Assembly (NCBI GenBank): GCA_028870845.1
Contig: JAGWOR010000016.1
Span: 1-50,295, forward strand
From: Gammaproteobacteria bacterium
GTDB taxonomy: Bacteria; Pseudomonadota; Gammaproteobacteria; Natronospirales; REEB76
Length of the DNA stretch: 50,295 nt
Reading direction: 5' to 3'
Shown here piece by piece: positions 2,141 through 9,496 of this stretch. The notes beneath the pieces were generated by a model. The model was given only the letters and a program-made list of their open reading frames with translations. It was not told where the DNA came from and searched no databases. Within the stretch, counting starts at the first letter, position 1. Each line of letters begins with the position of its first letter. A program made the translations under genes and the position numbers.

Positions 2141-3376
2141 ATGTCTGCTTTTAGCCCACTCCGCTGGCCCCGCGCCGTCGCCCTCATCGACATGAACGCC
2201 TTCTTCGCCAGCATCGAACAGCGGGATTTCCCGGAACTCCAGGGCCGTCCCGTGGGCGTCACCAACGGCATGACCGGCACCTGCATCATCACCAGCTCCT
2301 ACGAGGCCCGCCGCCGCGGCATCCAGACCGGCATGCGCGTGAAACAGGCCCGGCGCCTGTGCCCGGAGTTCGTGCAGCGTCCGGCCCGCCCCGAGCGCTA
2401 TGCCCAGGTTTCCACCGCCATCATGCAGGCGCTGCAGGAAATCACCCCGCAGGTGGAAGTGTTTTCCGTGGACGAGGCCTTCCTGGAACTGACCGACTGC
2501 CAGGATGCCTTCGGCACTCCGGTGGCCATGGCGCGCCGCGCCCGCAACGTGGTGTTCCGGGTCTCGGGCCTGCAGTGCAGCATCGGCGTATCGGGTGACA
2601 AGACCACCGCCAAGCATGCTGCCAAGCTGCACAAGCCCGACGGCTTCACGGTGATCCCGCCGTGGGAAGCGCGCGCGCGCTTGCATCATGTGCCGCTCAC
2701 GCAGCTGTGCGGCATCAAGCAGGGCATCGGTGGATTCCTGGCGCAACGCGGCATCCATACCTGCGGCGACATGCAGCGCCTGCCCATCAGCGTGCTGGCG
2801 CAGCGCTTCGGCAATCCCGGCCGGCGCATCTGGCTCATGGCCCAGGGGCTGGATCCGGAACCGGTGCACACCACAGTGCCGCCGCCCAAGAGCATCGGCC
2901 ACGGCAAGATCATGCCGCCGGCCACCCGCGACCGGCGGGTGCTGGCCACCTACCTGCTGCACATGGCGCAAAAAGTCGGCGCGCGGTTGCGCCAGCATCA
3001 GCTGCAGGCCCAGACGTTCTTCATCGGCTTGTTGAGCGACGGCGGCTATGTGGCGCATAAATTCAGGAGCGTGCGCGCCACCGACGACAGCCGCGAAATC
3101 TACGCACTCTGCAAGGACTATCTGGCGCGTTACTGGAGCGGCTGGGGTGCGCACCAGGTGCAGGTCACCGCCCTGGATCCGCGTCCGGCCGATGTCCAGC
3201 AAGACCTGTTCTTCCACAGGGATGAGCGGCTCGCACGGTTGAACACGGTGATGGACGCCGTCAACGCGCGATACGGCGAGTTCACCCTGGCACCCGCGCC
3301 GTTGCTGCTGCGCAGCAACATGCCCAACGTGATCGCGCCGGCCTGGAAACCCTACGGCCACCGCCAGACCATCTGA
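2141..3376 (+). CDS. Y-family (DinB/UmuC-type) translesion DNA polymerase
   Basis: 411 residues. The N-terminus ALIDMNAFFASIEQRD (residues 14-29) gives the first catalytic Asp (D17). FSVDEAFLEL (109-117) gives the invariant D111-E112 pair, and CSIGVSGDKTTAKHAAKLHK is the palm/fingers signature. A helix-hairpin-helix region and a little-finger domain follow (KIMPPATRDRRVL onward). The family copies damaged DNA with low fidelity after replication blocks. The sequence is Pol IV-like, but it is longer than E. coli DinB (351) and divergent, so I give no symbol. The LexA box directly upstream indicates induction by DNA damage. The stop is only 2 bases from the next gene, which implies one transcript with the SRAP-like protein. 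Confidence 0.92.
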   Translation: MSAFSPLRWPRAVALIDMNAFFASIEQRDFPELQGRPVGVTNGMTGTCIITSSYEARRRGIQTGMRVKQARRLCPEFVQRPARPERYAQVSTAIMQALQEITPQVEVFSVDEAFLELTDCQDAFGTPVAMARRARNVVFRVSGLQCSIGVSGDKTTAKHAAKLHKPDGFTVIPPWEARARLHHVPLTQLCGIKQGIGGFLAQRGIHTCGDMQRLPISVLAQRFGNPGRRIWLMAQGLDPEPVHTTVPPPKSIGHGKIMPPATRDRRVLATYLLHMAQKVGARLRQHQLQAQTFFIGLLSDGGYVAHKFRSVRATDDSREIYALCKDYLARYWSGWGAHQVQVTALDPRPADVQQDLFFHRDERLARLNTVMDAVNARYGEFTLAPAPLLLRSNMPNVIAPAWKPYGHRQTI

Positions 3377-3378
3377 AC

Positions 3379-3786
3379 ATGTGCGTGGGCGTGCACTACA
3401 CCCTCGGCAGCCGCGAGCTGCGGGTGCTGTTTGCCGACCGCAACGCCCAGCTGCCGGTGTCCACCCGCGACGGCATGGTGCTGATGCCCTGGGGGCGCCG
3501 GCCGCGGCAGGCCGGCCGGCTGCCGCTGGGCGGCTGTGCCTTTCTGGACGCCGTCCACGCCGGCAACTGGGACCGCTACCGGCCCAAGGCAGTGCGCCTG
3601 TGGGTGCGGAGTTTCGCCGAGCAGGACGTGGAAGGCCGGGTGCACTGGCATGAGCTCACCGCCGGCAAATGGATCAAGGGGCTGGTGGCCCGGGACGCAG
3701 CCGAACGCCGGGTGTACGTGGTCACGCTCACACCGGTGCTGGCGGAAACCCCCTACGAACGCTGGCCCTGCATCCACAGCGGCTAG
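3379..3786 (+). CDS. Small SRAP-like (YedK/HMCES-type) protein in SOS operon
   Basis: 135 residues beginning M-C2, as SRAP proteins do; in that family Cys2 forms a crosslink to abasic sites in single-stranded DNA. MVLMPWGRRPRQ resembles the WGLxP segment, and VYVVTLTPVLAETPYERWP resembles the final TTxAN...IHxRMP strand. Two things are odd. It is much shorter than usual (about 220), and the position I align with the catalytic His of IHxRMP reads Tyr (PYERWP). It follows the Y-family polymerase by 2 bases and should share its LexA-controlled promoter, which fits a DNA-damage role. The assignment rests on motif reading only. An unrelated small Cys2 protein is the main alternative. Confidence 0.55.
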   Translation: MCVGVHYTLGSRELRVLFADRNAQLPVSTRDGMVLMPWGRRPRQAGRLPLGGCAFLDAVHAGNWDRYRPKAVRLWVRSFAEQDVEGRVHWHELTAGKWIKGLVARDAAERRVYVVTLTPVLAETPYERWPCIHSG

Positions 3787-4869: not shown

Positions 4870-6081
4870 TCAAACCGGGCGTTGGAATACCAGCGTGGCG
4901 TTGGTGCCGCCAAAACCGAAACTGTTGGACATCACGCAATTCAATGGCATGTATTCAGTCTGCTGCACGATATGCAGTCCCTTCGATTCGGGACACGGAT
5001 TTTCGATATTGATGGATGGCGCCATGAAACCCTTTTCCATCATCAACAGGCAGTAAATGGCCTCGTGCGCACCCGCCGCGCCCAGGGAATGTCCCGACAT
5101 GGATTTGGTGGAAGACACCGGCGGCGCCCGCTCGCCGAATACGTTTTTGATCGCCAGCAGTTCGACGGCATCCCCCGCCTGGGTTGAGGTACCGTGGGCA
5201 TTCAGGTAATCAACCGGCACCTGGACATGTTCAAGGGCCATGCGCATGCAGCGTTCCGCGCCCTCGCCCGAGGGCGTCACCATTTCACAACCGTCCGAGG
5301 TTGCGCCATAGCCGACGAGTTCCGCATAGATGTGCGCCCCCCGTTGGCGGGCCGCCTGCAGTTCCTCGAGCACCAGGATGCCGGCACCGCCGGCGATCAC
5401 GAAGCCGTCGCGCTGCACGTCAAACGGGCGTGAAGCCTGTGCCGGAGTCTGGTTGTAGCCCGAGGACAGCGCCCCCATGGCATCAAACAGGCAGCTCAGG
5501 CCCCAGTGCAGCTCTTCGCCGCCGCCGGCGAACATCACATCCTGGGCGCCCGAACGGATCAGGTCGGCCGCCGCGCCGATGCAGTGCGCGGATGTGGCGC
5601 AGGCGGAAGAAATTGAATAACTGATGCCCTTGATTTGAAACGCGGTGGCCAGTGTCGCCGAAACCGTGGAACACATGCAGCGCGAGACCATGTACGGGCC
5701 GATACGGCGTACCCCGCGGGATCGCAAGGTGTCGGCCGCCTCGATCTGGTTGGCGACTGAACCTCCGCCTGAACCCGCGATCACGCCCACCCGTGGCGTG
5801 TGAATCAAATCCGGAGTCAGCTTGGCATCATCGATTGCGTCACGCATGGCGACGTACGCGTAGGCAGCCGCATCTCCCATGAACCGCTTGAGCTTGCGAT
5901 CGATGACATTTTCCAGATCGATTTCCGGCCATCCCGCCAGCTGGCTGCGCAGGCCCAGGTCGGCGTACTCCTGCACATAGCGAATTCCTGAGCGCCCCTC
6001 GCGCAAAGCCGCTTCGACTTCTGCCTTGGAATTTCCCAGACACGAGACGATGCCCATGCCGGTCACTGCCACACGCCGCAT
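4870..6081 (-). CDS. fabB: 3-oxoacyl-ACP synthase I
   Basis: 403 residues, the usual length for KAS I (about 406). The Cys-His-His triad is visible: C161 in [12 protein letters not shown]296 in [10 protein letters not shown] and H331 in [14 protein letters not shown], with K326 and the glycine-rich end [14 protein letters not shown]. FabB condenses malonyl-ACP with acyl-ACP and is the isozyme needed to elongate the cis-3-decenoyl intermediate made by FabA. Its pairing with fabA 9 bases upstream supports KAS I over KAS II. The ribosome site TAGGGAA overlaps the fabA stop. It should be cytosolic and supply unsaturated fatty acids. Confidence 0.93.
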
Positions 6082-6090
6082 ATTCGTTCC

Positions 6091-6627
6091 CTACAGTGCG
6101 CCGGTATCGGTGAACAGCCCGACCCGCAGAGTGTTGGCTGTATATATCAGAGTTCCGTCGACCAGGACACGCCCATCGCCGACCCCCATGATGAGTTTGC
6201 GCTCGATGACGCGCGTGACATCGATTTGGTAGCAGACTTTGTGTGCCGTGGGCAGCACCTGGCCGGTGAAGCGGACTTCGCCGACGCCCAACGCACGGCC
6301 GCGGCCCGGATTGCCGCGCCAGCTCAGATAGAAGCCTAACAGCTGCCACAATGCATCCAGTCCCAGGCATCCCGGCATCACCGGGTCTGATTCGAAGTGA
6401 CAGGCAAAGAACCACAGATCAGGTGTGATATCCAGCTCGGCTTCGACGATGCCCTTTGAGTGACTGCCGCCATCCGCAGCAATCTGGGTGATGCGGTCAA
6501 ACATCAGCAGGTTAGGCAGGGGCAGCCGGCCGTTGCCAGGTCCGAACAGCTCACCATGGGCGCAGGCGATCAGCTCGTCGCGCGTATAGCTGGATTGTCT
6601 GGTTTCCTGAGCAGCAAGAGGTTGCAT
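6091..6627 (-). CDS. fabA: 3-hydroxydecanoyl-ACP dehydratase/isomerase
   Basis: 178 residues from the ATG at 6627 ([19 protein letters not shown]). The active-site stretch [20 protein letters not shown] carries His77 and Asp91, equivalent to the E. coli H70/D84 pair, followed by [13 protein letters not shown]. The enzyme dehydrates 3-hydroxydecanoyl-ACP and isomerises the trans-2 product to cis-3, the branch point to unsaturated fatty acids. The frame extends upstream but that extension overlaps the preceding gene and lacks family similarity. The ATG is 7 bases after the stop of the chorismate-mutase-like gene, and fabB follows by 9 bases, so this is the middle of a three-gene operon. Confidence 0.94.
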
Positions 6628-6634
6628 GCCGAGT

Positions 6635-7042
6635 TTACTTGGGGCGTGCCAATGGCAGCACAATGGCATTGTCGCCGGGCTCCACGTACTGGCGCAATAG
6701 CAGCAGGAACATATTCCGTACCAGCGCGGCATCCAAGCCGTTGTGCTGCGCCAGGCTGGCGGTCCGTTCCAGGATTTCCTGTTCCCGCTCTGGCGAATGC
6801 AGCGCCATTCCCTGTCCGGCCTTCAGCGCCAGCGCCTGCCGGCTCAGATGCATGCGTTTACCCATAAGCCTAACCATGGCGGCGTCGAGCGCGTCGATCT
6901 GGCTGCGGATTTGCGTCAAAGTCTGATCACATGGCGGCTGATGGGGCGGCTGGCCGCCGGCGCCGGCCCCGCCATGACCTGCGTCAACCCCATCATCGCG
7001 GGATTGCCGTATGTTTGCGTTTTCCGGTTTCTGGATGTGCAT
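6635..7042 (-). CDS. AroQ-fold chorismate-mutase-like protein
   Basis: An AroQ helical domain covers the C-terminal 90 residues: [20 protein letters not shown], then [34 protein letters not shown] and FLLLLRQY. Arg, Arg, Lys and Glu align with E. coli chorismate mutase R11, R28, K39 and E52. The Gln88 position appears to be Leu in FLLLLRQ, so catalysis is uncertain. Chorismate mutase makes prephenate; the same fold serves isochorismate-pyruvate lyases. The start is unclear: the ATG at 7042 lies base-to-base against the ubiT ATG and has no ribosome site. A TTG nearer the domain is possible, since residues before LTQIR are Gly/Pro-rich and unlike the family. First gene of the fabA-fabB unit. 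Confidence 0.75.
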
Positions 7043-7564
7043 ATGCCGAAACAGATGGTTCAAAGTTCACCCGCCGCGGCTCAGCAACCCGCGGCTTTGA
7101 GGCTGGCGCGCCTGTTGGCGGGAGTTACCCGCAACGGTCCGGCCGCGGCCTGGTTTGACAGGCTGCTGGCGATGTTGGCGAACCGGGTATTTGCCCTGCC
7201 GCTGGCAAGCGGCGAGCTGGATTTCCTGAGCGAGCGCCGCCTGGCCGTGGAATTTGAGGACCTGGCGGTGTGCTGGGTGTTCAGCCTGCATGCCGGCAGC
7301 TTGCGGGTGCTCGACCGCCGCGCCCGTCCCGAAGTCAGCATCCGGGCGCGGCTCGCCGATTTCACGGCACTGGCCTTGCGGCGCGTGGACGCCGACAGCC
7401 TGTTTTTCCAGCAGCGGCTGGCAATCGACGGCGACGTGGCCCTGGGACTGATGCTGAAGAATTTTCTCGACGCCCTGGAACTGGACCAGCTTGCTTGGCC
7501 GGCGAAGTTCGCGCTGCTCGCGGGCGAGCGGCTGCTGTCCGACGCCCGGCGCACATCGGCCTGA
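7043..7564 (+). CDS. ubiT: Ubiquinone biosynthesis accessory factor UbiT (SCP2 domain)
   Basis: 173 residues, as E. coli UbiT (YhbT, 174). The core is an SCP2-type lipid-binding domain: ELDFLSERRLAVEFEDLAV, then VSIRARLADFTALALRRVDA and the most diagnostic part DSLFFQQRLAIDGDVALGL followed by KNFLDALELDQL. UbiT is needed with UbiU and UbiV for oxygen-independent ubiquinone synthesis and probably holds the prenylated precursor. It converges on ubiV, the two stops being 11 bases apart. I chose the ATG at 7043, which forms a CATATG with the ATG of the opposite gene. The frame is open further upstream, but that part lacks similarity. Confidence 0.9.
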   Translation: MPKQMVQSSPAAAQQPAALRLARLLAGVTRNGPAAAWFDRLLAMLANRVFALPLASGELDFLSERRLAVEFEDLAVCWVFSLHAGSLRVLDRRARPEVSIRARLADFTALALRRVDADSLFFQQRLAIDGDVALGLMLKNFLDALELDQLAWPAKFALLAGERLLSDARRTSA

Positions 7565-7575
7565 AGCGCCGGCAT

Positions 7576-8484
7576 TCATGAACCGGAACCCATGGATTCA
7601 ACCCACTGGTGTCCCGCCTGCCCAAACCAGTAGCCGTTGCAACTCTCGCCGTCGATGAGACCGGTCAATTCCGGCATCCGTCCCTCGTGGATGGCGGTGT
7701 GGGTGTGTTCGATGATTGTCTCCAGATGTTTTGATAGCGGGCTGATGCGCACCAGCCGCACGCCCAGCTGCTGCATGTCCTGCCATTCGGTGAGCAGGTT
7801 AAGCACCTGCCCGGACTGGCTCTGGATACCGTTGAGTGTCAGCAGCCGCTTGTCATCTTGTGTATACACTGGCAGACCATCCGGATACTTGAGGCATTCG
7901 AATTCACAGCTGTCTTTCTGCAGATTGCTGGCGCGCGCGGTAAAACAGCGGGCCGAGTAGGCCAGTGGCATGTGACCGAAGGCGAAGACCTCGGTTTCGA
8001 GACGCTCGCCGAATCCCAATTCAGCCGCCTCGCCGAGAACCGCCGCCAATGTTGCGCGCGGCAGTTCCACCGGCGGCGTCCAACGGATCATGCCCTGACG
8101 CTGCAGGTAGTTCAGGCTGCGGCTGTTGTAGATGTTGAGCGCATGGCCGCCGGCGAAAGGCAGGTGCTTTTCATTTAGCAGGTGCACCGCCGCCATGTCG
8201 TTGGCTTCCACCAGCAGTTCGCCGTTGTCACACAGGCGCGCCAGGGTGCTCAATTCCGACTCGGCTTCGATGAGCGAGAGCGTGGACAGCACCGCCTGCT
8301 TGCCGCTTCTGGAAATCTCCCGTGCCAGTTCGATCCACTCGGCGGTGCGCAGGGCGCGGCGCTTGGAACACACGGTTTCACCCAGATAAATCGTGTCCAC
8401 CGGCCAGCCGGCGGCGCGCGCGTAAAAATCCAGCAGCAGTTCGCGCGGCCAGTAATACAGCACCGGCCCCAGGGAGATTTTCAT
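7576..8484 (-). CDS. ubiV: O2-independent ubiquinone hydroxylase subunit UbiV
   Basis: 302 residues from the ATG at 8484 (MKISLGPVLYYWPRELLLDF). It is a U32-peptidase-like TIM barrel with the four 4Fe-4S cysteines C39 (GETVCSKRR), C180 (SARCFTAR), C193 and C197 (DSCEFEC), matching the E. coli UbiV numbering I recall. UbiV forms a heterodimer with UbiU and hydroxylates the ubiquinone ring without oxygen, using prephenate as oxygen donor according to published work. The gene lies 16 bases after ubiU, in one operon. It implies that this organism makes ubiquinone under anoxia, for example for nitrate respiration or microaerobic growth. Confidence 0.95.
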   Translation of the reverse strand: MKISLGPVLYYWPRELLLDFYARAAGWPVDTIYLGETVCSKRRALRTAEWIELAREISRSGKQAVLSTLSLIEAESELSTLARLCDNGELLVEANDMAAVHLLNEKHLPFAGGHALNIYNSRSLNYLQRQGMIRWTPPVELPRATLAAVLGEAAELGFGERLETEVFAFGHMPLAYSARCFTARASNLQKDSCEFECLKYPDGLPVYTQDDKRLLTLNGIQSQSGQVLNLLTEWQDMQQLGVRLVRISPLSKHLETIIEHTHTAIHEGRMPELTGLIDGESCNGYWFGQAGHQWVESMGSGS

Positions 8485-8500
8485 GGCGGCGGCCACGGGA

Positions 8501-9496
8501 TTACTGCCAGGCGCGCTGATAGGCGCCGAGCGTGGTTTGTGCGCCTTCCGCGACGCTGGCCAGGGAATGCAGCCATTCATGCTGCACCGCGAAGGCATCC
8601 GAGTGTTTATGCAGCGCGTCCAGAGCCGCGCGCCACACGCTGGTCACCTGCGCCACATAGGCGGTGCCGCGTTGCCGGCCTTCGATCTTGATGGCCTTGA
8701 TGCCGGCCCTGGCCAACGCCGGCAGCAGGGCGATGGTGTTCAGGCTGGTGGGTTCCTCCAGCACGTGGTACACGGCACCGGCGGCCCGGAATCTGCCCTT
8801 GCAAATGACCGGATAGCCGGCGGCGCTGTCGGCGGGAAAGCGGTCCACCAGCAGGCCGTTGAGGCGTGATTCCAGTCCGGACGGGTGTTTTTGCCAGGTC
8901 ACGAATTCCGCCGGAGAACAGGCGCCGCTCAAGTTGGGAGACTTGCCGGTGGCGTAGGAAGACAGCTGGCAGCGGCCTTCCACCATGATGCACAGGCTGC
9001 CGAAGGCGAAAACCTCCAGGTCCACCGGGCTGTTGGCCGCCAGCCGCACCACCTGATTCAGGGATAACACCCGCGGCAGCACCGCGCGCCGGATACCGAA
9101 CGCCTGCCGATACCAGCTGAGCGCGTTACGGTTGGTGGCCGAGGCCTGTACCGACAGGTGCAGGCGCATGCCCGGATAGCGGGCCTGTGCGTACTCCATG
9201 ACGCCGATGTCGGCCACGATCAGCGCATCCAGGCCGGCGTCAGCCGCCAGGTCCACGGCCCGCGTCCAGCGCTGCCAGCCCTGCGGTTGCGGATAGGTGT
9301 TGATGGCCAGGAACACCTTGGCACCGTTCACGTGTGCGTAGAACACTGCCTTGGCGAGATTGCCTGCATCGAAATTCAGACCGGGGAAGTGCCGGGCATT
9401 GGTGTCGTCGCGCATCCCTATATATACGGCGTCCGCGCCGTGATCGACCGCCGCCTTCAGCGAAGGCAGGTTTCCTGCAGGGGCAACAAGCTCCAC
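8501..9496 (-). CDS. ubiU: O2-independent ubiquinone hydroxylase subunit UbiU
   Basis: 331 residues, the same length as E. coli UbiU (YhbU). It starts at a GTG (9496) with GAGG 8 bases upstream and reads MELVAPAGNLPSLKAAVDHG. DADAVYIG-like and DDTNARHFPGLNF motifs, SVQASATN and EVFAFGSLCIMVEGRCQLSS follow. Cysteines C169, C176, C193 and C232 match the four iron-sulfur ligands of the E. coli protein at the same positions. The EGRQRGTAYVAQVTSVWR end is typical of U32 proteins. It works as a complex with UbiV. It is first gene of the ubiUV operon; see the candidate FNR/ANR box upstream. Confidence 0.95.
   Translation of the reverse strand: MELVAPAGNLPSLKAAVDHGADAVYIGMRDDTNARHFPGLNFDAGNLAKAVFYAHVNGAKVFLAINTYPQPQGWQRWTRAVDLAADAGLDALIVADIGVMEYAQARYPGMRLHLSVQASATNRNALSWYRQAFGIRRAVLPRVLSLNQVVRLAANSPVDLEVFAFGSLCIMVEGRCQLSSYATGKSPNLSGACSPAEFVTWQKHPSGLESRLNGLLVDRFPADSAAGYPVICKGRFRAAGAVYHVLEEPTSLNTIALLPALARAGIKAIKIEGRQRGTAYVAQVTSVWRAALDALHKHSDAFAVQHEWLHSLASVAEGAQTTLGAYQRAWQ

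Follow-up and report, generated by a model that had tools for sequence, protein, structure and literature searches.

Why does a gene for a chorismate-mutase-fold protein (aroQ) lie back to back with ubiT, beside ubiU and ubiV, on a 50,295-nucleotide stretch of gammaproteobacterial DNA (contig JAGWOR010000016.1 of assembly GCA_028870845.1, analyzed as a whole and hereafter called the window)? A first reading from the letters alone (the sequence-only reading) had suggested that this gene is functionally linked to anaerobic ubiquinone synthesis, prephenate, the product of chorismate mutase, being reported as the oxygen donor of UbiUV. Comparison with related loci bears the suggested link out: aroQ adjoins ubiT also where fabAB is lacking, is absent together with ubiU, stands between ubiT and ubiV in one locus and is fused to ubiT in others. 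A functional link between aroQ and the ubi genes thus appears well supported by gene content and order. We consider it probable that the AroQ-fold gene encodes a dedicated accessory of the UbiTUV pathway, supplying or carrying prephenate, and prephenate supply or delivery would be the most economical mechanism. The genes at the locus are as follows.

4870-6081, minus strand, fabB (NF005935, 652.3 bits, cut-off 630)
6091-6627, minus strand, fabA (TIGR01749, 285.4 bits, cut-off 238.15)
6635-6919 (to about 6920), minus strand, core of aroQ, a chorismate-mutase-fold (CM_2) protein (Pfam CM_2, PF01817)
7043-7564, plus strand, ubiT, an SCP2-domain accessory factor of oxygen-independent ubiquinone synthesis (NF047962, 114.8 bits, cut-off 46.9)
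7576-8484, minus strand, ubiV, a U32 iron-sulfur protein (NF047965, 375.4 bits, cut-off 275)
8501-9496, minus strand, ubiU, a U32 iron-sulfur protein (NF047963, 538.2 bits, cut-off 440)

FabB, FabA, UbiT, UbiV and UbiU each exceed the cut-off of their own NCBIfam equivalog model. The AroQ protein passed the Pfam CM_2 model (65.2 bits, E 6e-18, gathering score 27) and stayed below cut-off for every NCBIfam mutase or lyase model scanned. ubiUV and ubiT are convergent, as had been pointed out, with stop codons 11 bases apart. Cysteines 169, 176, 193 and 232 of UbiU and 39, 180, 193 and 197 of UbiV are present in the window proteins, at the spacing expected from the four conserved cysteines of each E. 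coli protein.

Searching 39 relatives with the window AroQ yielded 24 matches; the best 10 (E ≤2.6e-8) all have ubiT within the same 3-kb stretch, as does only one of the 14 weaker ones. UbiV was above cut-off at 94 places in 93 of 369 genomes sampled evenly across the class; the 93 places besides the window's were fetched, with flanks of as much as 9 kb each way where contigs allowed, together with 7 loci picked for an AroQ match. Counting how often AroQ neighbours ubi genes, as the sequence-only reading had suggested, gave 8 of the 93 ubiV loci, from 7 families, and in each of them the AroQ-family open reading frame adjoins or is fused to a ubi gene. Three of these loci belong to the window's genus or order (L065, L087, L114) and five to other families (L094, L102, L108, L109, L110). 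L109, counted here, is kept out of the set of 14 stand-alone loci used below, as is L125, which lies on the same 9,734-base contig as the locus of genome G010.

The immediate neighbourhood raises the alternative that aroQ belongs with fabA and fabB, its closeness to the ubi genes being secondary. In the window, the three genes share one strand with gaps of 7 bases (aroQ-fabA) and 9 bases (fabA-fabB), and fabA-fabB are likewise neighbours of aroQ in L119, L121 and L094. However, only 4 of the 14 stand-alone loci, the window included, have fabAB immediately adjoining aroQ, whereas L120 and L122, from the same genus, keep aroQ, ubiT and a neighbouring GNAT gene with no fabAB between; conversely, L117 (genome G237) has ubiUVT next to fabAB and no aroQ, and in the fusions described below the partner of AroQ is UbiT and not a Fab protein. 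An aroQ neighbouring only fabAB in relatives had been named beforehand as evidence against the ubi link, and the opposite is seen, aroQ staying with ubiT where fabAB is absent. The assignment to fabAB is largely refuted by the L120, L122 and L117 loci and by the UbiT fusions, and we regard it as very improbable. Two further stand-alone arrangements place aroQ among ubi genes. In the metagenome-assembled genome locus L152 (L152:4713-9361), ubiT, aroQ, ubiV and a ubiD-family decarboxylase gene follow one another on one strand with ubiU divergent, and in L094 (L094:4741-7639) ubiT-aroQ-fabA-fabB are consecutive on one strand with ubiUV divergent. FabAB provide an oxygen-independent route to unsaturated fatty acids, and the L094 row may be a joint anaerobic gene set.

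Elsewhere, AroQ and UbiT are parts of a single protein. One open frame encodes AroQ and then UbiT in L108 and L110, with CM_2, SCP2 and UbiT domains above cut-off (Pfam, NCBIfam), and all 7 fusions scanned exceed the Pfam cut-offs for both CM_2 and SCP2. A UbiT scan of named genomes (80 loci kept) identified the fusion at 16 loci and a separate, adjacent AroQ at two; the 16 include L175 and L177, which are near-identical. Organism titles assign the fusions to Rhodanobacter, Dyella, Frateuria, Dokdonella, Arenimonas, Rehaibacterium and metagenome-assembled genomes, a Xanthomonadales-type group. UbiV is convergent with the fusion in the retrieved stretch at 14 of the 16 loci and UbiU and UbiV are both present at 11, the remainder showing UbiV only (L164, L175, L177) or neither protein (L159, L172). 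Among 200 genomes of the order of G182, at least 22 intact fusions were found, all in families f16, f182, f184 and f185; among the matches listed, every UbiT of these four families is fused, and UbiT of f189, f190, f191 and f193 is unfused. Across 398 genomes of the phylum the fusion occurs in at least 3, all f16 among the matches listed. The AlphaFold model of one fusion displays a helical AroQ domain, a low-confidence linker (residues 97-121) and an SCP2-like domain, at moderate overall confidence (mean predicted local distance difference test score, pLDDT, 72.6; predicted template-modelling score 0.45). Apparent AroQ-UbiT fusion remnants with an internal stop, not counted in the 22, lie at G564:C1:1525585-1526259 and G382:C12:97473-97913; G382 has no UbiV in the UbiV list of the sample.

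Shared presence and absence was followed in the window's genus, in 11 genomes (G000-G010), mostly partial metagenome-assembled genomes, 52-99% complete and not independent of one another. The ubi-linked aroQ and ubiU occur together in the same 7 of the 11 genomes, and the other 4 have neither. Conceivably, aroQ encodes a housekeeping chorismate mutase, serving phenylalanine and tyrosine synthesis, that lies near ubi genes by chance; the Pfam assignment as CM_2 would fit this, as would the ubi-linked AroQ being the only CM_2 found in G000, G006, G007, G009 and G010. Prephenate dehydratase, AroH and CmoA are above cut-off in none of the 11 genomes, and TyrA is strong only in G001 and G008, where it lies next to a second CM_2 carried on DAHP synthase. 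Elsewhere in the genus TyrA stays below cut-off, except for a weak match above it in G010 (35 bits). Chorismate synthase is encoded by 10 of the 11 genomes. The fusion-bearing species of L174 has a TyrA-type mutase as well, separate from the fusion. We reject the housekeeping role on the pattern of prephenate dehydratase and TyrA, on the absence of aroQ wherever ubiU is absent and on the loss of the Gln or Glu at position 88 described below, and consider it unlikely. The UbiU model found no second U32 protein in the 11 genomes, and G000 and the 98%-complete G007 yielded no further mutase. UbiUV are the only prephenate users found by these searches in most genus members, a strong but not independent hint, and the genus members are likely phenylalanine auxotrophs and, in most cases, tyrosine auxotrophs.

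Whether the AroQ protein can make prephenate depends on its active site. The predicted structure of the window protein matches E. coli chorismate mutase (1ecm) with a Z of 10.7 and a root-mean-square deviation of 2.0 over 86 residues, and R11, R28, K39, R51 and E52 (E. coli numbering) are shared by all 14 of the stand-alone ubi-linked proteins, the window's among them, and by 17 of 17 fusions. The aligned fusions also keep D48 and Q88 throughout (the 17-row residue alignment includes L175, whereas the tree and the position-88 comparison kept L177 only). These five residues and position 88 have catalytic roles in the E. coli enzyme. D48 was dropped as a discriminating residue, as many PheA-type domains carry Arg there. 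At position 88, the fusions have Gln in 17 of 17 cases, and the chorismate mutase domains of other kinds aligned with them have Gln or Glu in 16 of 16. The fused AroQ looks like a complete mutase, judged by these residues. The sequence-only reading had spoken of a chorismate-mutase-fold enzyme; the fold stands, but the residues speak for a prephenate-making enzyme only in the fused version, the window protein having Gly at position 88.

A related activity, that of an isochorismate-pyruvate lyase of the PchB type making salicylate, was considered, PchB being the best PDB sequence match of the window AroQ (E 3e-9) and a structural match at Z 9.7. The window protein scores 51.5 bits with the corresponding lyase model, NF005475, whose cut-off is 126. 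Salicylate and siderophore proteins are absent among the 7 neighbours scanned, and a lyase would leave the ubi link unexplained; Gln90 of PchB is not kept either. On the model score and the neighbours we reject this activity as most improbable. Outside chorismate mutases and PchB, the structure comparison returned only helical matches of low Z.

Several points weigh against a dedicated prephenate-supplying AroQ. None of the 14 stand-alone ubi-linked proteins has Gln or Glu at position 88, where they carry G, D, P, A, V or T; with Gly there, the window protein departs from active mutases, which have Gln or Glu, and its mutase activity is therefore uncertain, maybe weak or gone. The arrangement is a minority one, 85 of the 93 sampled ubiV loci being without AroQ within about 9 kb (some contigs are short), and E. 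coli UbiTUV works without an AroQ neighbour. The genus comparison carries the partial, non-independent nature of its genomes. Upstream of the fusions, sites resembling the FNR consensus given below reach at least 8 positions in 3 of 18 cases (L175 and L177 both counted), about chance level, and were dropped as support, there being no enrichment across the set. The loss at position 88 leads to a further alternative, in which the stand-alone AroQ is a non-catalytic sensor or carrier of prephenate or chorismate, with prephenate made elsewhere or spontaneously. Replacement of Gln/Glu88 in 14 of 14 proteins that keep R11, R28, K39, R51 and E52 would agree with this, and so would the predicted window structure, in which helix 3 stops near residue 117, immediately ahead of position 88. 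Against a purely binding role stand G000 and G007, whose only mutase found is the ubi-linked protein, and the fused relatives with their complete active site; we regard it as less probable, though a serious competitor. The stand-alone AroQ may have kept chorismate or prephenate binding, with catalysis lost or changed.

A weak tree, built on 79 columns from 47 AroQ domains, unites the 17 fused rows (support 92/93) and, separately, 13 of the 14 stand-alone rows (86/95), with L014 outside. Two or more recruitments of AroQ are favoured by this tree, though not proven. L109 was kept out of it for its odd frame: the AroQ-like open reading frame there (L109:8384-8911, in a 1.5-Mb genome) is convergent with ubiV, keeps Gln88, lacks the N-terminal arginine and has an unusual C-terminal part; it may be a case apart or a gene in decay.

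In the mechanism we favour, UbiT would carry lipid ubiquinone intermediates to the hydroxylase formed by the iron-sulfur proteins UbiU and UbiV, which is reported to take its oxygen atom from prephenate. An AroQ domain beside UbiT or fused to it would convert chorismate to prephenate on site, and a stand-alone AroQ without Gln/Glu88 would bind prephenate and hand it over, or make it slowly. An AroQ-UbiT-UbiUV complex that delivers prephenate may form, we infer. More tentatively, and with some doubt on our side, AroQ may have been recruited at least twice as an oxygen-donor module: fused AroQ would channel prephenate, as soon as it is made, to the substrate bound by UbiT, and stand-alone AroQ would have traded catalysis for binding prephenate and delivering it to UbiUV.

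Known AroQ chorismate mutases (CM_2) occur alone or joined to PheA, TyrA or DAHP synthase, the family being prone to fusion with pathway partners. The proteins described here share with them the three-helix fold and Arg11, Arg28, Lys39, Arg51 and Glu52; they differ in that the partner is UbiT, a lipid-binding accessory protein, and in the stand-alone members without Gln/Glu88. The UbiTUV pathway of E. coli (YhbTUV) is matched by the passed UbiT, UbiU and UbiV models, the ubiU-ubiV order and a candidate FNR-like site before ubiT, whereas here an AroQ gene or domain belongs to the locus. PchB, the closest PDB sequence, differs in that the window AroQ lies below the lyase family cut-off. TrhP and RlhA, prephenate-dependent hydroxylases of the same U32 family as UbiU and UbiV, act on RNA substrates, and the available parts of the sources mention no dedicated mutase for them. 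The prephenate need of TrhP-dependent tRNA hydroxylation was shown genetically (PMC6599085). For UbiUV, prephenate was proposed in 2023 (PMC10470549), and a review of 2024 (PMC11574389) gives it as the oxygen source with reference to Ferizhendi et al. 2024. That review states that the chemical transformation and direct enzyme evidence for U32 hydroxylases are still to be demonstrated (PMC11574389). Our literature search, which did not include the text of Ferizhendi et al. 2024, found no report of a link between UbiT and chorismate mutase or of a fusion of chorismate mutase with SCP2, and the available portions of PMC6747719 and PMC11707229 contain no mention of such a link through genomic context or fusion. 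A complete chorismate mutase fused to UbiT would be independent genomic support for prephenate as the donor; it points to prephenate delivery at a UbiT-UbiUV complex and could serve as a one-protein reagent for rebuilding the hydroxylation reaction. The window's genus offers a natural test case, because in most of its members the searches turned up no prephenate user besides UbiUV.

The sequence-only reading had also placed the start codons of aroQ and ubiT against each other in a CATATG. This motif is present at 7040-7045; that both genes start in it is not confirmed. The listed aroQ frame reaches back to 7063; an ATG at 7042 and a TTG at 6919 are in this frame. Upstream of about 6920, this extension shows substitution rates of 0.39, 0.39 and 0.35 by codon position between L122 and L121, and none of its 37 changed codons is synonymous, whereas the aroQ core shows a third-position excess (0.26, 0.24 and 0.47) and 27 synonymous among 61 changed codons. 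AlphaFold pLDDT is 53-62 in the extension and above 90 in the core. The region between the two genes holds two candidate regulatory elements.

6974-6987, between aroQ and ubiT, FNR-like palindrome ATGACCTGCGTCAA (7 of 10 consensus positions, weak alone)
7010-7015, plus strand, candidate -10 element TATGTT for ubiT (read from sequence)

We reject the aroQ frame up to 7042 as protein on its codon evolution, its low pLDDT and the FNR-like palindrome inside it. Very likely, ubiT starts at 7043 and aroQ well inside its listed frame, not at 7042; annotation probably accounts for the apparent abutment of the two starts, because the extension shows no coding pattern of evolution and holds the palindrome. 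The FNR consensus was scored as TTGAT-N4-ATCAA over 10 positions, and the best FNR-like site before ubiU in the window also reaches 7 of 10, the same as before ubiT. Sites of this kind are present in the aroQ-ubiT gap of 11 of 11 divergent relatives (10 of 10 positions in two, 9 in six and 8 in three), compared with 18% at 8 or more and 3.7% at 9 or more in random 311-base stretches of the same loci (n=4000). The spacing of TATGTT would suit a class II FNR promoter. Joint FNR control of aroQ and ubiT may follow from this layout. Most ubiTUV loci are reported to have an FNR site ahead of ubiT (PMC11707229); new here would be that the FNR-like gap of ubiT also lies upstream of aroQ.

Elsewhere in the window, an open reading frame at 2141-3376 resembles, by eye alone, a Y-family DNA polymerase, and the one right after it, at 3379-3786, resembles an SRAP-domain protein, likewise by eye alone.

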